Below are positions 17,900 through 26,444 of a stretch of 64,000 nt of DNA, piece by piece. Below the pieces are notes generated by a model that ran no database searches, was not told the origin of the DNA, and was given only the letters and a program-made list of their open reading frames with translations. This DNA is from an uncultured Bacteroidota bacterium (GTDB lineage: Bacteria; Bacteroidota; Bacteroidia; UKL13-3), in assembly GCA_903910445.1 (NCBI GenBank), contig CAIVZR010000025.1:62001-126000 (forward strand), given 5' to 3'. The stretch's first letter is position 1. Every line of letters begins with the position of its first letter. The position numbers were made by a program, and so were the translations under genes.

Positions 17900-18973
17900 A
17901 TGCAACATTTTAATGCAATCGGATTGATGAGTGGATCATCTTTGGATGGAGTAGATTTGTGTTATGTTGAGTTTAAGAATCTTGAAGGTCGATGGAAGTA
18001 CTCCAATATCCTTGGCGAAACCATTGCCTATAGCGAATCGTGGAAGCATCGATTGCTTCATGCATCCAAAGATAATGCAGAAGTTTTTTGTAAAACACAT
18101 GTCGATTATGGCCATTATTTAGGGAATATTGTAAAGGGATTTATTTCAAAGAATTTATTGAAAGTTGATTTTATTGCTTCCCACGGACATACCATTTTTC
18201 ATCAACCCAATAATAGATTCACCACACAAATTGGTGATGGCGCAAGCATCTATGCCATCACGGGAATAAAAACCATCAGCGATTTTCGGAATGTTGATAT
18301 CGCTTTGGGTGGTCAAGGTGCACCCTTAGTGCCAATAGGCGATCGTGATTTATTTGATGGATATTCGGTGTTTTTAAATTTAGGAGGCATTGCCAATATG
18401 AGTGTTCAAGACGCTTCTGGGGTAGTGAGTGCATTCGATATTTCTCCATGCAATATGCCATTGAACATGTTATGTGAGAAATATTTTGGAGAGAGTTATG
18501 ATAAAGATGGTCATCATGCCATGCAAGGAAAACTCGATGCGCCATTATTAAATACGTTACAGCAATTGAATTATTTTGGCTTGCAACCACCGAAATCACT
18601 GGGACGTGAGTTTATGATACGTGAATATTATCCGATAGTTGATAGTGCCCTATGTTCGCCAGAAGATAAATTATTTACCGTGGTAACCCATCTGTCGGTT
18701 GAAATAAGTAAAGCCATAAATAAATTTTCATCAACACAGGAAACGAAAAATATTTTAGCCACTGGAGGTGGCGTTTATAATTCATTCTTGTTGGCCTCAA
18801 TTCAAAACTTGTGCAATTATCCAATTACAGTCCCATCGCCCGAAATTATTGAGTTTAAAGAAGCCTTGATATTTGCCTATTTGGGCTTGCTGCGCGTGAA
18901 TGAGAAGGTGAATGCATTATCGAGTGTAACTGCAGCTTCCCGTGATAATATCGGCGGAGCAATATGGGGTTAG
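17900..18973 (+). CDS. anmK: Anhydro-N-acetylmuramic acid kinase
   Basis: AnmK phosphorylates and opens 1,6-anhydro-MurNAc to MurNAc-6-P in peptidoglycan recycling. The ATP-binding motif IGLMSGSSLDGVD is at residues 7-19, FIASHGHTIFHQP and TQIGDGASIYAITGIKTISDFR follow, and GGQGAPLVPIGD and FLNLGGIANMS complete the family pattern, with ATGGGVYN near the end. At 357 residues it is full length. It converges on the MFS gene, whose stop is 25 bp away. MurQ was not seen in this window. Confidence 0.95.
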   Translation: MQHFNAIGLMSGSSLDGVDLCYVEFKNLEGRWKYSNILGETIAYSESWKHRLLHASKDNAEVFCKTHVDYGHYLGNIVKGFISKNLLKVDFIASHGHTIFHQPNNRFTTQIGDGASIYAITGIKTISDFRNVDIALGGQGAPLVPIGDRDLFDGYSVFLNLGGIANMSVQDASGVVSAFDISPCNMPLNMLCEKYFGESYDKDGHHAMQGKLDAPLLNTLQQLNYFGLQPPKSLGREFMIREYYPIVDSALCSPEDKLFTVVTHLSVEISKAINKFSSTQETKNILATGGGVYNSFLLASIQNLCNYPITVPSPEIIEFKEALIFAYLGLLRVNEKVNALSSVTAASRDNIGGAIWG

Positions 18974-18998
18974 CTTTCAGCCTCCCCAATAATATTAA

Positions 18999-20210
18999 TT
19001 AGATATTTTTTGAGAACGTGCGATACGCTAGTATCAAACTGGTTGCAGTTAAAATGGCACCTGCGATATACGGTGCACCAGGAAATTCAACAGGAGCATT
19101 CGGTCCAGAGAAGAAAGTAAAAAGATTCGTCATCATCACAGGTCCTATGATTGCTGTGATACTCATAATACTTGTAAGCGCGCCTTGCATTTCACCTTGT
19201 TCGGTAGGTTTTACTTGCCCAGAGATGATGCCCTGAATGGCAGGTCCGGCAATGCCTCCAAGGCAATATGGGATGAGGAATGCGAACATCATCCAGCTCT
19301 TTACAGCAAAGGCAAATAAGATAAATCCAATCATGTACAATGCCATGCCAACATAAACCGATTTATGTGGGCCAAGCTTTGGATTGATCACACGAATGAG
19401 TCCGCCTTGAACAATTGAAACCAGGATGCCTACTGCACCGAGTGAATAACCTACCATCTTCGAATCCCAATTAAACTTATACATGGTGTAGAAAGTCCAG
19501 GTGCTTTGCACAGCATGTGATGCAAGATAAATACATAAGAGAGAGCCTACCAACCCTAGGATGATTGGGTAGTTTCTTAATCGCATCAAAGTGCCTACAG
19601 GGTTGGCTCTGCGCCAGTTGAACTCCCTGCGATTTTCAAGCTTTAGTGATTCGGGAAGGATGAAGTATCCATATAAAAAATTTAAGAATGCGATGATTGC
19701 TGAGATGATGAATGGGACACGCACACCCCACTGACTTGTGATACCACCGATGACAGGGCCGATGATAAATCCTACACCAAATGCTGCACCAATCATTCCG
19801 AAATTTTGCGCTCTTTTTTCAGGCTCGCTAATATCGGCGATATAGGCAGAGGCGGTGGTATAGCTGGCTCCAAGGATACCCGCCAAAATTCGTCCAACAA
19901 AAAGCCAGGCAATCGTAGGTGCCCATACTTGCAATACACAATCGATACTTAAACCTAGCAAAGCAAGTAGCAGTATAGGTCGGCGACCATACTGATCGCT
20001 CAATCCACCAAGGATAGGAGAGAAGATGAATTGCATGATGGAATAGCAGAACATGATCCAGCCTCCGTATTGCGCAGCTTTGCTGATGCCTTCACCAGTG
20101 AGTTGTTCAATCAGAGAGGGTATTACAGGAATGATGATACCAAATCCGATAACATCAATAAGTACCGTGATGAATATAAAGCTGATTGCAGCATCTTTTT
20201 TACTAGCCAT
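18999..20210 (-). CDS. MFS transporter, TCR/Tet (DHA1) type
   Basis: A 403-residue, 12-segment major facilitator of the drug:H+ antiporter-1 group with TetA-like features. Motif A is GGLSDQYGRRPILLLAL in the loop after helix 2, and motif C-like GAAFGVGFIIGPVIGG is in helix 5, marking an antiporter. The first helix begins IFITVLIDVIGFGIIIPVIP. Despite the resemblance to tetracycline exporters, chromosomal DHA1 members of this kind are widespread and the substrate is unknown. It is followed on the same strand by nothing before anmK (convergent) and lies 33 bp downstream of the AI-2E family gene, so the two may be co-transcribed. Confidence 0.88.
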   Translation of the reverse strand: MASKKDAAISFIFITVLIDVIGFGIIIPVIPSLIEQLTGEGISKAAQYGGWIMFCYSIMQFIFSPILGGLSDQYGRRPILLLALLGLSIDCVLQVWAPTIAWLFVGRILAGILGASYTTASAYIADISEPEKRAQNFGMIGAAFGVGFIIGPVIGGITSQWGVRVPFIISAIIAFLNFLYGYFILPESLKLENRREFNWRRANPVGTLMRLRNYPIILGLVGSLLCIYLASHAVQSTWTFYTMYKFNWDSKMVGYSLGAVGILVSIVQGGLIRVINPKLGPHKSVYVGMALYMIGFILFAFAVKSWMMFAFLIPYCLGGIAGPAIQGIISGQVKPTEQGEMQGALTSIMSITAIIGPVMMTNLFTFFSGPNAPVEFPGAPYIAGAILTATSLILAYRTFSKNI

Positions 20211-20243
20211 AGAATCGTTTAGAGGGAGCGCAAATGAACGAAT

Positions 20244-21365
20244 TTATTTTGTCTCCTCAGTGAAACCATGATGTTTCTTTGCTTTTTTACCAAAGATGAA
20301 AACACTTCCATTCATTAAAGGCATCGTATCGCCAAGTAGATAACCAAATGGTTCCAATGATTTTATTTTATCAAAAATTACTTTGATGATGGCCGTAACA
20401 GGCAAGGAAAGGAACATCCCCGATACCCCCCAGAGTGCGCCACCAATAAGCACCACAATAATTGATACTAAGGCATTGATTTGCACTTTCGCAGCCACCA
20501 CCATGGGGTTAATGATATTATTATCGATAAGTTGAACGATAGTGTATCCACCTAAAACATAGATTGCGTAAATAGGTTCCTTTGTTGCGATGGCGAGTAA
20601 CATTGGGATGGAGATGGCTACTATACCACCGATATATGGAATGATATTGAGTAATCCACCCACCACACCAATGAGTAAAGCATACTCGATGCCAAGTAAC
20701 AGAAGGACTATCGTATTGAGAGCTGAGACCATCAGAAATTCGAGCATCAAACCCACGAGGTAATGTTGGATAAGTAACTTCGTTTCGTTGAGCACATCTA
20801 CTACTGCTTCATGTTTTCCTGGAGTGAATAGTTTGGCGATGAAATTAAGCAGCAAAGGCTTGTATAAAAGAAACAAAAATATATAAACGGGTATCAAAAA
20901 AATAACCACAAAAACTCCACCGAGCGTACTCAATGTTTGACCAATAACGCTGGTGGAATTGCTTAGCCCTTCGGCTTTGGTAGTTGCAATCCATGCATTG
21001 ATTTGATTAGTGGAGATATTAAAAGTACTAGCAAGCCATTGGATAGTTTGGGCTATGATTTCGGTGAATTTAATTTTCAACTGTGGCCATGAATCGCTAA
21101 ACATCGTTGCTTGTGAGCCAATGAAGAAGAGGAGTCCGAAAGTTAGGATGGTTGCGAGGGTTACTGCGATAGTGATGGATACGATGCGATTTATTTTGCG
21201 ATTGAGCAGATTCACCAAGGGGTTGAGTAAGATGGCGATGATGAGCGCAAAGAGGATAGGAACGATAATTTCTTGGCCAATGTATAAAACATAGAACAAG
21301 GCAATAATTCCAAGGAAGAGTTGAGATAGCCGAATATAAAGTGGCAGTTCGTTTTCGTGTGACAT
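20244..21365 (-). CDS. AI-2E family transporter (PerM/YdiK type)
   Basis: A 373-residue polytopic membrane protein of the AI-2E/PerM family. It has the N-terminal pair of helices (LGIIALFYVLYIGQEIIVPILFALIIAILLN), a central soluble region (about 70-150), then hydrophobic helices with IEYALLIGVVGGLLNIIPYIG, the best conserved family segment, and LIDNNIINPMVVAAKVQINAL. Members have been linked to export of the AI-2 signal or to Na+/H+ antiport, but the substrate here is unknown. It is transcribed away from the repeat array that starts about 120 bp upstream of it and is followed by the MFS gene. Confidence 0.9.
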   Translation of the reverse strand: MSHENELPLYIRLSQLFLGIIALFYVLYIGQEIIVPILFALIIAILLNPLVNLLNRKINRIVSITIAVTLATILTFGLLFFIGSQATMFSDSWPQLKIKFTEIIAQTIQWLASTFNISTNQINAWIATTKAEGLSNSTSVIGQTLSTLGGVFVVIFLIPVYIFLFLLYKPLLLNFIAKLFTPGKHEAVVDVLNETKLLIQHYLVGLMLEFLMVSALNTIVLLLLGIEYALLIGVVGGLLNIIPYIGGIVAISIPMLLAIATKEPIYAIYVLGGYTIVQLIDNNIINPMVVAAKVQINALVSIIVVLIGGALWGVSGMFLSLPVTAIIKVIFDKIKSLEPFGYLLGDTMPLMNGSVFIFGKKAKKHHGFTEETK

Positions 21366-21483
21366 GGTAAATAAAAAGGGAAGATAGAAATTATTGTTGA
21401 AGTGGGGGGAGTGGGGGCTTTATTTTTGGGGTGGGCATGGGTGGGGTATGAGGTGACATGGATATATGATGTGTTAGTTTGTC

Positions 21484-21516
21484 CCCATAGGTAACTTTGA
21501 TGTTTCTTGTGTTTAA
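21484..21516 (+). repeat. Half copy of the two-hairpin repeat
   Basis: Contains only the left arm of palindrome P1 (CCCATAGGTAACTTTGATGT), then diverges after position 21504. It abuts full unit 1 and looks like a truncated leading copy of the array. Confidence 0.7.
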
Positions 21517-21634
21517 CCATAGGTAACTTTGATTTGCAATCAAAGCAACCTATGGTTACTCATCGTTGAACTGCGGTGCAGTTTTATACTGGGGGCACTT
21601 GATGAGGGGTTGGTAGAGTGTGATGCTATTTGCC
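21517..21634 (+). repeat. Two-hairpin repeat, unit 1 (118 bp)
   Basis: P1 at 21517-21555: CCATAGGT, AA bulge, CTTTGATT, TGC loop, AATCAAAG, CA, ACCTATGG. P2 at 21569-21583: AACTGC, GGT loop, GCAGTT. Then the common CTGGGGGCACTTGAT block and a GT-rich tail. Head-to-tail with unit 2. Confidence 0.92.
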
Positions 21635-21751
21635 CCATAGGTAACTTTGATGTTCCATCAAAGCAACCTATGGTAACTCATCGTAAAACTGCGATGCAGT
21701 TCTTTACTGGGGGCACTTGATAGAGGGTTGGTTGGGGTGATGCTTTTTGCC
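21635..21751 (+). repeat. Two-hairpin repeat, unit 2 (117 bp)
   Basis: P1 at 21635-21673 with the same outer stems but a GTTCC loop region between CTTTGAT and ATCAAAG; P2 at 21687-21701 with loop GAT; then the CTGGGGGCACTTGAT block and GT-rich tail. Nearly identical to unit 3. Confidence 0.92.
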
Positions 21752-21858
21752 CCATAGGTAACTTTGATGTTCCATCAAAGCAACCTATGGTAACTCATCG
21801 TTGAACTGCGATGCAGTTCTTTACTGGGGGCACTTGATAGAGGGTTGGTTGGGGTGAT
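21752..21858 (+). repeat. Two-hairpin repeat, unit 3, interrupted at its right end by the transposase cassette
   Basis: P1 at 21752-21790 and P2 at 21804-21818, nearly identical to unit 2. Identity to unit 2 stops after GGGGTGAT at about 21858, where the transposase cassette begins; the missing tail (GCTTTTTGC-like) reappears as TTTTTGC just before unit 4. Confidence 0.9.
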
Positions 21859-21880
21859 TATTTTTTTACTTGAAAATGGA

Positions 21881-21909
21881 TTGTTTTTTCGAGATAAATT
21901 TTATTTTTG
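21881..21909 (+). promoter_or_regulatory. Candidate transposase promoter
   Basis: TTG at 21881 and TATTTTTG (TAnnTTTG) at 21902-21909 with an 18-bp spacer, close to the Bacteroidota -33/-7 pattern. A start near 21916 gives a leader of about 25 bases. Confidence 0.5.
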
Positions 21910-21940
21910 AAGTATAATAAACTTATAAAAATTACAGCTT

Positions 21941-22387
21941 ATGTCGACCTACACACAAATTATTTATCATGTGATTTTCACAACGAAAAATCGGGAGAAG
22001 AATTTACTTGAACTGAATCAAAAAAGACTTTATCGATTTATTTGTCAGACTATCGAAAACAAGAATTGCAAGGTTTTTCAAATTAATGGGATGGAGGATC
22101 ATATGCATCTGGCGATTTTTCTTCATCCTTCGATATCACTTTCCGACCTTGTTAAGGACATAAAGGTTTCATCAAATTATTGGATTAGAAGAGAGAAAAT
22201 TTTTCCAAACTTCAAATCGTGGCAGATTGGGTATGGAGCTTTCAGCTACTCAATAAAGGAATTGCCAAGGGTGGTACGATATATCAAGAATCAGAAAGAG
22301 CATCATAGAAAGAAGTCTTATATAGAAGAAAGCATCAAGTTATTGGAGGATAATGGGGTGAAATATGATGAGGCGTTTTTGTTTTGA
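21941..22387 (+). CDS. Y1 (HUH) transposase, IS200-like / REP-associated tyrosine transposase
   Basis: A 148-residue single-stranded DNA transposase of the Y1 HUH family (PF01797). The HUH metal site is DHMHLAIF at about residues 49-56, and the catalytic Tyr is in RYIKNQKEHH near residue 117. Such enzymes cut and join at hairpins in single-stranded DNA. It is flanked on both sides by identical two-hairpin repeats in the same orientation, which is the arrangement expected of a RAYT with its REP elements, though 148 residues is closer to IS200 TnpA and the group cannot be settled by eye. No associated tnpB is present. The gene appears intact. Confidence 0.9.
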   Translation: MSTYTQIIYHVIFTTKNREKNLLELNQKRLYRFICQTIENKNCKVFQINGMEDHMHLAIFLHPSISLSDLVKDIKVSSNYWIRREKIFPNFKSWQIGYGAFSYSIKELPRVVRYIKNQKEHHRKKSYIEESIKLLEDNGVKYDEAFLF

Positions 22388-22451
22388 GGGTGTGCATTTT
22401 TTCTCTTAGTGTCTTTGATTTGACTGTCTTTTATCTGTAGGACTTTTTGCA

Positions 22452-22568
22452 CCATAGGTAACTTTGATTTGCAATCAAAGCCACCTATGGTTACTGAGGG
22501 TTGAACTGCGATGCAGTTCTTTACTGGGGGCACTTGATACAGGGTTTTTAGAGTGTGAGGCTTTTTAT
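22452..22568 (+). repeat. Two-hairpin repeat, unit 4, downstream of the transposase
   Basis: P1 at 22452-22490 with the TTGATTTGCAATCAA core as in unit 1, but CC in place of CA in the internal bulge; P2 at 22504-22518; then CTGGGGGCACTTGAT and a diverged tail. Same orientation as units 1-3. The 22388-22451 stretch before it shows no gene. Confidence 0.9.
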
Positions 22569-22637
22569 TTTTAAGCAAACTGTGTCACCATTCGTGTCTT
22601 TCCCATCTTGGATATAACTCCTGAATTCATAAAAAAC

Positions 22638-22743
22638 AACTGCCCCGCAGTTGAACCATTAGTAACTATAGGTGGCAATATGCGCAGCAGATTGACACCT
22701 ATAGGACAAACAAAGCTGCGAAGCAGATTGGCACCTATAGGAC
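22638..22743 (-). repeat. Diverged inverted copy of the repeat plus 21-bp direct repeats
   Basis: 22638-22652 is AACTGC CCC GCAGTT (a P2 hairpin) followed by GAACCATTAGTAACTATAGG, which matches the reverse complement of the P2-P1 junction of units 1-4. CTATAGGTG (22666-22674) pairs with CACCTATAG (22696-22704). GCAGATTG(A/G)CACCTATAGG recurs at 22687 and 22723, 36 bp apart. The rest of 22569-22884 shows no gene. Confidence 0.65.
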
Positions 22744-22884
22744 TACAAAAGCCGTGAAGCATCGAGAGCAGTAAAATACAACCAAATCAGTCTTTCGCAT
22801 CTCAAAATCCTCGTCATTGTCACACAAAATTTAAAATTCGTTTTTCATTCCTTAACTTGCACCCCGATTCAAAATAAACCTATT

Positions 22885-24075
22885 ATGTATTCAACCTTAC
22901 AACCGATATTAGAAAAAGAGCTGGCTTCAATAAAAGAAGCTGGATTGTTTAAAAGTGAACGTGTGATTGCCTCACCTCAAGGTGCCGAAATTACACTTAC
23001 CGATGGAAGCAAGGTGCTAAACTTTTGTGCCAATAACTACCTCGGACTCTCTTCGCATCCTCGGGTGCTGGTTGCTGCCAAAGCTGCCATTGATAGCCAC
23101 GGTTTTGGAATGAGTAGCGTACGTTTTATTTGTGGTACGCAAGATATTCACAAACAACTTGAATTAAAGATTTCGGAGTTTTTAGGTACTGAAGATACTA
23201 TCCTTTATGCTGCAGCTTTTGATGCGAATGGTGGTGTGTTTGAACCACTATTGAATGAAGAAGATGCATTGATAAGTGATGAACTTAATCATGCAAGTAT
23301 CATTGATGGGATTCGTTTATGTAAAGCAGAACGCCATCGTTACAAACACAACGACATGGCCGACCTCGAAGAGAAGCTGAAAGCGAGCATGCACAAACGT
23401 CAGCGCATGATTGTTACTGATGGTGTATTTAGTATGGATGGCACCATTGCGCAACTCGATAAAATATGTGAGCTGGCAGATAAATACCAAGCTATTATTA
23501 TGATGGACGAATGTCATGCCAGTGGATTCATGGGCAAGACAGGAAGAGGCACCCATGAACACCATAACGTGATGGGCCGCATTGATATTATCACTGGTAC
23601 CTTGGGTAAAGCCCTGGGAGGTGCTATGGGTGGATTCACCTCAGGCAAAAAAGAAATTATCGATTTATTGCGTCAGCGTTCACGCCCATATTTATTTAGT
23701 AATTCACTGGCCCCAAGTATTGTGGGTGCAGGTATCGAAGTGCTGAATATGCTGGGAGAGAGCACTGCCTTGCGCGATAAATTGGAAGTGAATACCAAAT
23801 ATTTTAGAGAGAAAATAACCGCCGCAGGTTTTGATATTAAACCTGGAACACACCCTATTGTACCAGTGATGCTATACGATGCCGTTTTGGCTCAGAAATT
23901 TGCAACACGTATGTTGGAAGAAGGTATTTATGTTATTGGATTCTTCTTCCCAGTAGTGGCCAAAGGCAATGCGCGTATTCGCACGCAGATGAGTGCAGCA
24001 CACGAAATTCACCACCTTGACAAATGCATCGAAGCCTTCACTAAAGTGGGGAAAGAGTTGGGAGTGATTAAATAG
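22885..24075 (+). CDS. kbl: Glycine C-acetyltransferase (2-amino-3-ketobutyrate CoA ligase)
   Basis: A 396-residue alpha-oxoamine synthase with PLP. It interconverts 2-amino-3-ketobutyrate plus CoA with glycine plus acetyl-CoA in threonine breakdown. The PLP lysine is in [13 protein letters not shown] (near residue 244), the cofactor Asp-x-x-His in [12 protein letters not shown], and the substrate-side motif [17 protein letters not shown] in the N-terminal part is typical of Kbl. The conserved opening [22 protein letters not shown] supports both start and family over AONS/SPT relatives. A TAACTTGC motif at 22853-22860 may be its -7 element. No threonine dehydrogenase gene is in view. Confidence 0.92.
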
Positions 24076-24133
24076 GGGATTGCTTCTAATCGAAAGAGAA
24101 GATTACATAAATTGAAATAGGAATATTTTTTAG

Positions 24134-24262
24134 TTAAAATTGGAACACCACTTCCACCAGACTCTTTAACTCAAAATTAGTGGGGCAGCCTTTCTTATGG
24201 CAAGAAGAGCAAGTGATTCCTGCCAATAGGATAAATAGAAATAGTGATTTTTTCCTACGCAT
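24134..24262 (-). CDS. Small lipoprotein, 42 residues
   Basis: A short reading frame encodes 42 residues beginning MRRKKSLFLFILLAGITCSS: a basic start, a hydrophobic core and a Cys-containing end suggest a lipoprotein signal peptide (lipobox GITC or TCSSC). The mature part would be about 20 residues, CHKKGCPTNFELKSLVEVVF plus two, with further Cys residues. Tiny lipoproteins with a GCP motif occur in Bacteroidota, but I cannot name a family. A perfect TAATTTTG (-7) lies on the same strand just upstream. It is divergent from the enoyl-CoA hydratase gene and fills most of the gap after kbl. Expression is unproven. Confidence 0.6.
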   Translation of the reverse strand: MRRKKSLFLFILLAGITCSSCHKKGCPTNFELKSLVEVVFQF

Positions 24263-24269
24263 ACGGATG

Positions 24270-24277
24270 CAAAATTA
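24270..24277 (-). promoter_or_regulatory. Candidate -7 element of the small lipoprotein gene
   Basis: On the minus strand this reads TAATTTTG, an exact TAnnTTTG, seven bases before the ATG at 24262. It would give a leaderless or very short-leader mRNA, like def. No clear -33 element is seen. Confidence 0.35.
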
Positions 24278-24282
24278 ACCCT

Positions 24283-24310
24283 TTTGCTTAAATCTTTTTC
24301 ATTTTCTTTG
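24283..24310 (+). promoter_or_regulatory. Weak candidate promoter for the enoyl-CoA hydratase gene
   Basis: TTTG at 24283 and TTTCTTTG at 24303-24310 (one mismatch to TAnnTTTG) with a 16-bp spacer. The ATG is 21 bases downstream at 24332. Confidence 0.3.
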
Positions 24311-24331
24311 CATTAAATAATTAAGCTGGTC

Positions 24332-25105
24332 ATGCAATTTGTCCTTATCGAACCCAATATCGCCGAAAACTACGCCGTTCTTAGACTGAACCGCCCCCGC
24401 GAACTGAATGCACTCAACCTACAACTGATGCAGGAACTGCGTGCTGGCTTGCAATTGCTCGATGCCGACGACAATATTCGCTGTATCATCATCACGGGCA
24501 ACGAACGTGCTTTTGCTGCTGGTGCCGATATCAAACAGATGCAGGAACGTACTGCCATCGACATGCTTAAAATTGACCAGTTTAGCACCTGGGACGCCAT
24601 ACGTAAAACAAAGAAGCCCATCATAGCCGCCGTATCAGGATTTGCCCTCGGGGGTGGATGCGAGCTTGCCATGCTTTGCGATATGATCATCGCCAGCGAG
24701 ACAGCCATGTTTGGTCAGCCCGAAATAAAACTGGGCGTGATGCCCGGAGCCGGTGGAACCCAGCGCCTTACCCGCGCTGTTGGGAAAGCCCTCGCCATGG
24801 AAATGGTGCTCACTGGTCGTTTCATCGATGCCAACAAAGCGTATCAGTTCGGACTCATCAATAAAATTGTTCCTGTTGAATACTACCTCCAGGAAGCCAT
24901 CACCTTGGCCAAAGAAATAGCACAACTTTCACCGCTTGCCATTCGCCTGGCCAAAGAGAGCGTGAATAAAGCATTTGACTCCACCCTGAATGAAGGACTG
25001 GAGTTTGAACGCAAGAATTTCTATATGCTCTTCGCCAGCCAGGACCAAAAAGAGGGAATGGCAGCATTCGTAGAGAAACGCCAAGCGCATTTTGAAGGCA
25101 AATAA
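24332..25105 (+). CDS. Enoyl-CoA hydratase/isomerase (crotonase family)
   Basis: A 257-residue crotonase. The oxyanion-hole segments are [12 protein letters not shown] (about residues 65-76) and [14 protein letters not shown] (about 104-117). [20 protein letters not shown] (about 131-150) carries the second catalytic Glu in the PEIKLG motif; the first is in GGGCELAM. This supports syn-hydration of 2-enoyl-CoA in fatty acid or amino acid degradation. The gene is clearly richer in G+C than its surroundings (65 of 120 bases in 24361-24480 by hand count, against 23 of 60 in 26461-26520). It is followed 31 bp later by the M24 peptidase gene. Confidence 0.93.
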
Positions 25106-25136
25106 TTAAATCACAAAACATAAAATACCGAATCAA

Positions 25137-26444
25137 ATGAAATATATTCCTTTACCACAAGATCTTTTCGTACAGAACCGTGCTCGGCTAAAAGCATTGC
25201 TCAAACCCAACAGTGTGGCCATCTTAAACAGTCACGATGAGATGCCAAGAAGTGCCGATGCACATTTCAATTTCTCTCAAAACCGCGATCTGTACTATCT
25301 TACAGGTATCGACCAGGAAGATTCGATTCTGATTTTATTCCCCGATTCACCGAACCCGATTTTTAGAGAGATGCTTTTTTTGAAGCGCACCAACGAAACC
25401 ATCGCCATTTGGGAAGGACATAAATATACCAAAGAGGAAGCCTTTGCAACCAGCGGCATCACCCGTATTCATTGGCTGGAAGAATTTGATACGATGTTTC
25501 AACTCGTGATGCACCAAGCCGAAAACGTGTACTTGAATTTAAATGAGCACGATCGTCATGTATGGCATCAAAGCTATAAGGATTTGGATTTTGCACATCG
25601 TATCCAAAAAGAATTTCCACTCCATCATCGCCAGCGCCTGGCACCCTTGATGCACCAGTTGAGAGCCATCAAAAGCAAGGCGGAGATTGCTGCAATGCAA
25701 GAGGCCGTGAATATCACCCACAAAGCCTTTGAACGGGTTTTGAAATTTGTGAAGCCTGGGGTTACCGAATTTGAAATTGAAGCGGAAATCACCCATGAGT
25801 TTCTGCGCAACCGTGCTACCGGACACGCTTACACTCCCATCATTGCGAGTGGTGCAAGTGCCTGTGTATTGCATTATATCGAAAACAATAAAGTATGTAA
25901 TGATGGCGAATTGATGCTCCTCGACTTTGGTGCTGAGTATGCCAATTATGCTGCAGACCTTACCCGCTGTATTCCAGTGAATGGTAAGTTCAGCGCTCGC
26001 CAGAAAGAAATTTATAATGCCGTTCTCAACGTGCACAATAATGCCAAAGCCATGCTGGTGGTGGGCGAGACCTGGGATAATTATCATATGAAAGTGGGAC
26101 AAATTATGACCGAAGAGCTATTGCGATTGAAACTTATCACTAAAGAGGATTGCAAAAACGACGATTGGGACAATACCCCTTGGAATGAGGCCAAAGCCTA
26201 TCGTAAATATTTGATGCATGGCACCAGTCACTATTTAGGATTGGATGTACACGATGTGGGCAGCCGCTATCGTAAGTTTGAAGCCGGCATGGTGTTTACC
26301 GTTGAGCCAGGAATTTATATCCCTGAAGAAGGAATCGGAGTGCGTATTGAAAATGATATTTTAATTAATGCCAGCGGCAATACCGATTTGATGGGTGCGA
26401 TTCCTATCGAAGTAGCCGATATTGAAGCCTTGATGGCCAAATAA
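25137..26444 (+). CDS. pepP: Xaa-Pro aminopeptidase, M24B family
   Basis: A 435-residue metallopeptidase that removes N-terminal residues before proline. An N-terminal AMP_N domain (residues 1-150, with NRDLYYLTGIDQEDS) precedes the pita-bread domain. The dinuclear metal ligands are all present: Asp263 and Asp274 in LLDFGAEYANYAADLTR, His365 in HGTSHYLGLDVHDVG, Glu390 in TVEPGIY and Glu405 in VRIENDI. There is no signal peptide, so it is cytoplasmic. It lies 31 bp after the crotonase gene and 9 bp before the next gene, so co-transcription is likely. Confidence 0.93.
   Translation: MKYIPLPQDLFVQNRARLKALLKPNSVAILNSHDEMPRSADAHFNFSQNRDLYYLTGIDQEDSILILFPDSPNPIFREMLFLKRTNETIAIWEGHKYTKEEAFATSGITRIHWLEEFDTMFQLVMHQAENVYLNLNEHDRHVWHQSYKDLDFAHRIQKEFPLHHRQRLAPLMHQLRAIKSKAEIAAMQEAVNITHKAFERVLKFVKPGVTEFEIEAEITHEFLRNRATGHAYTPIIASGASACVLHYIENNKVCNDGELMLLDFGAEYANYAADLTRCIPVNGKFSARQKEIYNAVLNVHNNAKAMLVVGETWDNYHMKVGQIMTEELLRLKLITKEDCKNDDWDNTPWNEAKAYRKYLMHGTSHYLGLDVHDVGSRYRKFEAGMVFTVEPGIYIPEEGIGVRIENDILINASGNTDLMGAIPIEVADIEALMAK

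Follow-up and report, generated by a model that had tools for sequence, protein, structure and literature searches.

A probable REPtron-like hairpin array around an IS200-like Y1 transposase gene in an uncultured Bacteroidota bacterium

In a 64,000-nt stretch of DNA from an uncultured Bacteroidota bacterium (hereafter "the window"), a small Y1/HUH transposase gene sits within a series of hairpin-bearing direct repeats. The initial annotation of this locus described four ~117-bp direct repeats around a 148-residue Y1 gene, each with an imperfect palindrome of 39 bp (P1) and a hairpin of 15 bp (P2); this description was confirmed by repeat search, folding, and an intact open reading frame, and the proposed head-to-tail layout by the repeat coordinates (Table 1). 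The four 117-nt units (repeat family D1, array score of 575 in Tandem Repeats Finder) are 79–100% identical to the reference copy, and each includes one P1 (CCATAGGTaaCTTTGAT...ATCAAAGcaACCTATGG) with P2 (AACTGCgatGCAGTT) located 13 bp past it. When folded as single-stranded DNA, the individual P1–P2 stretches yielded z-scores of -5.8 to -6.3, equaled by none of 200 dinucleotide shuffles, with P2 paired otherwise in the predicted fold of copy 2. The window P1 has an expanded loop and displays GTAA/GTTA rather than (A/G)TAG at its foot, and the units are not organized in the inverted pairs that characterize REPINs. Beyond the features initially annotated, we also identified a fifth, partial P1, an opposite-facing end, and two 36-bp direct repeats, which were probably left over from ends of this type. 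These 36-bp repeats adjoin the promoter region of kbl, and are also found in the sister genome G003. Two other interpretations of the array were considered and rejected, namely a CRISPR-like array, as the repeats are contiguous and lack spacers, and a type III toxin-antitoxin system, in which tandem repeats precede a small gene, as the gene here is a clear Y1 transposase.

Table 1. Features of the hairpin array and its surroundings, in window coordinates.
Feature	Position	Strand	Details
Fifth P1, truncated, left arm only	21478-21501	+	Repeat family D2
Repeat unit 1	21502-21618	+	P1 21517-21555; P2 hairpin ~21569-21583
Repeat unit 2	21620-21736	+	P1 21635-21673; P2 hairpin ~21687-21701
Repeat unit 3	21737-21853	+	P1 21752-21790; P2 hairpin ~21803-21819
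Y1/HUH transposase gene, 148 aa, subclass 1.2	21941-22387	+	DHMH, WQ, YIKNQKEHH
Repeat unit 4, 3' of gene, orientation as units 1-3	22437-22553	+	P1 22452-22490; P2 hairpin ~22503-22519
Opposite-facing hairpin CAACTGCCCCGCAGTTG + 12-nt tag + P1-like palindrome CTATAGGTGGCAA...TTGACACCTATAG	~22637-22704	-	Inverted repeats I2, I11
36-bp direct repeats (two): CTGCGNAGCAG hairpin + CACCTATAGG	22681-22752	+	Repeat search, Tandem Repeats Finder

The locus had initially been likened to a RAYT-REP arrangement, a comparison that did not hold for the class of the enzyme. The window protein matched the Pfam Y1_Tnp family (E = 1.7e-24) and scored 64.9 bits against the NCBIfam IS200 transposase model NF033573, above the cut-off of 55, whereas it reached only 30 bits against the NCBIfam RAYT model REP_Tyr_transpos, far under the cut-off of 80; the outcome was the same for three relatives. 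Its nearest solved structures are IS608-type TnpA, and its fold family is already fixed by sequence. The tyrosine motif, YIKNQKEHH, is of the YxxxQ and not of the YxxNP type, and the protein displays the features listed for TnpA-Y1 subclass 1.2 (Y---Q--HH, WQ, ~148 aa, low copy number), with DHMH as the HUH motif vs DH[IV]H in the published description (PMC6006769). Because the RAYT model falls below and the IS200 model above its cut-off, and because the motifs are those of subclass 1.2, the window enzyme is assigned from its sequence to this IS200-like subclass and not to the RAYTs. Subclass 1.2 was reported as an IS200-like orphan group of low-copy genes found mostly in Cyanobacteria and Bacteroidetes, and was tabulated without REPs and generally without IS200 end hairpins (Quentin et al. 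2018, PMC6006769). No paper linking this subclass to REPs was found in the open-access library searched. Among plasmids and phages, the window protein had distant relatives only, the best (41% identity) being encoded on a Bernardetia plasmid.

Comparison with sister species revealed both constraint on the gene and turnover of the array. The site is filled in G003, where the gene is 95% identical to that of the window, and purifying selection acts on the window gene (dN 0.030 and dS 0.385 relative to its G003 orthologue). In G001, G002, and G004, the same site is a short intergenic stretch with neither gene nor array. Identity is 97.8% between units 2 and 3 of the window and 100% between two units of G003, while cross-species unit pairs reach at most 95.5%. 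As these pairs are closer than any between the species, the array turns over within lineages, through lineage-specific duplication of its units.

We then considered the whole enzyme subclass. Subclass-1.2 genes gathered from relatives, named genomes, and extra regions provided 118 non-redundant loci, for which at most 400 bp of intergenic DNA on each side of the gene was searched for one or more 11-mers common to both sides, either direct or inverted. Such repeats were found at 51% of these loci vs 9% of 208 control genes from the same loci, and perfect hairpins with a stem of at least 8 bp were likewise denser at subclass-1.2 genes (1.63 per kb) than at controls (0.73 per kb). Hence, although the enzyme falls outside the RAYTs, the family as a whole supports a REPtron-like association of hairpins with Y1 genes. 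Subclass-1.2 genes were also detected in Verrucomicrobia and Planctomycetes. The absence of REPs and, generally, of terminal structures from the published description does not extend to the window gene or to many of its relatives, which we read as a revision of the description of subclass 1.2 rather than as grounds for excluding these genes from it. At five loci (L063, L091, L102, L110, and L117), the gene lies between long direct repeats (~100–250 bp) rich in short hairpins, and because these repeats occur on both sides, these genes are considered to be inside tandem arrays as well.

A tree of subclass 1.2 included a clade A, to which the window gene belongs, a clade B, and a small planctomycete/verrucomicrobial branch, and membership of clade A was defined by this tree. 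A P1 core, the palindrome GGTG-N(1-2)-AACC, was recurrent in clade A and in the small branch: it was present at 18 of 41 clade-A loci, not counting the window gene's own P1 because of its expanded loop, at 2 of 3 planctomycete/verrucomicrobial loci, and at 0 of 73 clade-B loci. About half of the clade-A loci displayed no P1 core. On the same contigs, the density of this core was 0.87 per kb beside clade-A genes vs 0.010 per kb further off, i.e., a ~87-fold enrichment. The usual layout consists of an outer hairpin A, ~12 nt ending in (A/G)TAG, P1, ~30 nt, an inner hairpin B, the gene, and then the mirror image. P1 hairpins stand on both sides of the genes and mostly face each other. P1 itself usually takes the form of (A/G)TAG followed by an 8-bp perfect stem and a 3-nt loop starting with G. 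Of the 20 copies aligned, 15 have (A/G)TAG ahead of P1, which reads GTAG in 5 to 6 of them; the tag of hairpins that flank RAYT genes is GT[AG]G. The P1 form is close to the REP of S. maltophilia, which includes GTAG, an 8-bp perfect stem, and a 3-nt loop whose first G is critical (PMC8266576). Every stem pair is kept across the 20 aligned copies, with 31 double-change cells vs 8 in shuffles; the search pattern imposed the inner five pairs, leaving the outer three, all of which pair, as the free test of pairing, and compensated changes such as these do not tell DNA from RNA.

The initial annotation further proposed that the hairpins are apparently mobilised, and here the window unit and its relatives differ. 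Five Y1 genes of this group are encoded in the genome, the paralogues being 37–56% identical, and the several near-identical copies expected in a genome carrying IS200 were not found among them. The nearest paralogue (C18:237-677), 56% identical to the window gene, is flanked by a simple P1. Dispersal was counted by pattern searches of the genome, with a reversed pattern as control. The 17-mer of the window P1 was found in the array only, its few other near matches (1–2 mismatches) resembling the reversed-control hits, and one of these, on C106, showed no palindrome when read in sequence. The copies dispersed in the host genome that are typical of RAYT hairpins were thus not found for the window P1. 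The pattern of the paralogue P1, CCATAGGT-N(3-29)-ACCTATGG, matched 40 sites in this genome, of which 4 belong to the window array, 3 lie next to the paralogue, and 33 are elsewhere, along with 25 sites in G003, 14 in G002, 2 in G001, and 0 in G004, while its reversed control matched 0 sites. Within 20 fetched loci, we identified 11 inverted P1 pairs, 107–229 bp apart and with matching outer and inner hairpins. The C18 paralogue gene is itself at the center of such a pair; 32 of the 33 P1 sites at these loci lie outside long ORFs. On the right side of dispersed copies, unrelated flanking sequence starts a few bases beyond the outer hairpin. The element at L173 is absent from G003, the boundary of this empty site not being exact to the base, and many other dispersed sites are common to this genome and G003, some with rearranged inner modules. 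Mobilization is therefore supported for the simpler P1 of the paralogue, dispersed largely as inverted pairs, but not for the window unit. The initial annotation also stated that the link to the enzyme would be coincidental if the unit occurred nowhere else in the genome or relatives without the transposase; this situation applies to the window unit on its own but does not apply to the family.

Judging by layout and motif, the counterpart of the window unit is the right half of the element that surrounds the paralogue, the P1 loop being expanded in the window; the sequence match between the two is short (36 nt, E = 0.015). At three pairs of sites common to two sister species (L171/L209, L177/L212, and L181/L206), inner hairpin modules were swapped, inverted, or lost, a mosaic behavior similar to that of BIMEs. 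Contigs often end in or near elements or arrays (C10, C18, C20, C33, C83, and C89 in G000; C97 and C106 in G003), and true copy numbers are therefore probably above the counted ones.

At the scale of the phylum, the tagged P1 pattern was detected in 55 of 395 Bacteroidota genomes. It was found in 11 of the 23 genomes with a clade-A gene, called at a profile score of at least 190 bits, vs 44 of the 372 others (Fisher p = 5e-5, or 1.8e-4 without the window's own genome, neither corrected for the relatedness of genomes), and was not seen in the remaining 12 of these 23 genomes. Four genomes of a single Bacteroidota family (G104, G133, G147, and G456) include 8–16 tagged P1 hairpins with no subclass-1.2 gene detected. 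Genomes with many P1 and no such gene may have lost it, or may encode another enzyme using the same hairpin.

Taken together, we consider it fairly likely that this locus is REPtron-like and based on a low-copy Y1 enzyme of the IS200-like TnpA-Y1 subclass 1.2, with the hairpin units most likely being the single-stranded DNA substrates of this enzyme. By analogy with IS608 and TnpA-REP (PMC8266576), P1 would fold on an exposed single strand and be bound by an enzyme dimer, the tetranucleotide at the hairpin foot may help select the cleavage site, which would lie at the outer hairpin or close to it, and joining via a 5'-phosphotyrosine link would excise or copy hairpin units. In the simpler system of the paralogue, this would have led to dispersed inverted pairs of the form hairpin A - tag - P1 - hairpin B : hairpin B' - P1' - tag' - hairpin A'. 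In the window, the corresponding half, of the right-end type and with its P1 loop expanded, would have been multiplied head to tail around the gene without dispersal, putatively by the enzyme rather than by recombination or slippage, and the altered tag and expanded loop are candidate reasons for this local multiplication. Several points count against this explanation: tandem arrays can grow by recombination or slippage without any enzyme, the window P1 is undispersed and its tag altered, and the homology to the paralogue's right half consists of layout and a short match. The clade-A loci lacking a P1 core, the clade-A genomes lacking a tagged P1, the genomes rich in P1 but with no subclass-1.2 gene, the inexact boundary at L173, and the pairs imposed by the P1 search pattern weigh in the same direction.

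The same observations can be read in other ways. An ordinary IS200/IS605-family insertion sequence may have had its own end, i.e., a hairpin and subterminal sequence, tandemly duplicated by recombination or slippage, in which case the array would be a by-product and not a set of substrates. Such an origin would fit the score above the cut-off of the IS200 model, the direct repeats on either side of the gene, which favor unequal exchange, and the two identical units of G003, but we consider it rather unlikely, given that IS200 elements share a mean identity of 99.4% (PMC6006769) while the paralogues here are divergent with no near-identical copies, that the gene is under purifying selection, and that half of all relatives display flank repeats.

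We also considered whether the hairpins instead act mainly on RNA, affecting how transcripts of the gene or of adjacent genes are processed, attenuated, or terminated, with the enzyme linked only via regulation by the repeats. The array units do fold well as RNA, and the compensated stem changes fit either type of molecule. However, a search of positions 18000-26000 against Rfam identified no RNA family, no T run follows P1, and P1 is found both on the two sides of genes, mostly in facing orientation, and in inverted pairs scattered between genes that are unrelated, all of which make a role mainly in RNA improbable. Finally, a decayed transposase gene could by coincidence lie beside an unrelated variable-number tandem repeat, which would be consistent with the lack of convincing copies of the window's extended P1 away from the gene. 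This is strongly disfavored by the contrast in flank repeats between subclass-1.2 and control genes and by the enrichment of the P1 core beside clade-A genes, and the window gene is intact and under purifying selection, so that we give coincidence hardly any credence.

Placed among known systems, members of subclass 1.2 resemble those of the original report (PMC6006769) in their length of 148 aa, their WQ and Y---Q--HH motifs, their low copy number, and their presence in Bacteroidota, and differ in being flanked by cognate hairpin repeats, some of them dispersed. The REPtrons of TnpA-REP/RAYT enzymes (Ec of E. coli, Sm of S. maltophilia, Ma and Mb of Marinomonas; PMC8266576) similarly have tagged hairpins on the flanks of a Y1 gene and further copies of them elsewhere, and Marinomonas REPs concentrate beside the gene (PMC8266576), providing a precedent for the concentration of the window units. 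Unlike in REPtrons, however, the enzyme here is of class 1, with YxxxQ instead of YxxNP, each half includes three hairpins, and the units of the window array follow one another head to tail and lack the exact tag. The inverted, intergenic pairs of the paralogue P1 are reminiscent of REPINs (Bertels and Rainey 2011, PMC3116915), although with tens rather than hundreds of copies, three hairpins per half, and no inverted pairs in the window array. IS200/IS605 elements such as IS608 and ISDra2 share the HUH and YxxxQ motifs, the nearest structures (IS608-type TnpA), and hairpins near the ends, but here there are no high-copy near-identical elements, and hairpins occur in arrays or in dispersed pairs without a gene. 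Subclass 2.6 TnpA-Y1 of Bacteroidetes, in which atypical secondary structures that also have copies in the genome were described on the flanks of the Y1 genes (PMC6006769), is alike by that description but is another enzyme subclass, of 179 aa and with a YIH[QN]NP motif.

An enzyme subclass reported without REPs thus appears to have a hairpin system of REP type, and this system is wider than one array. We see an even chance that, separately from the RAYTs, subclass 1.2 as a whole forms one more lineage that mobilises REPs, located on the IS200 side of the Y1 family. In this reading, its low-copy nuclease, present in Bacteroidota and in some Verrucomicrobia and Planctomycetes, would act on a dedicated, (A/G)TAG-tagged P1 within three-hairpin, REPIN-like mosaic elements, with the window representing a variant in which half-elements grow into a local tandem array. 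This suggests that REP-type hairpin systems have arisen on the IS200 side as well as among RAYTs, or are ancestral to both. The cognate, structure-conserved hairpins, some of them in inverted pairs, provide a testable substrate for the orphan subclass 1.2, for which one genome offers both dispersing and non-dispersing versions of the same system. The clade-B paralogues of this genome, L007 (G000:C11), L008 (G000:C6), and L009 (G000:C43), are associated with their own, different hairpin families or arrays, including, 3' of the C6 gene, a direct array of CGCCCCGNTGGGGCT hairpins, preceded by TTAACGGG.
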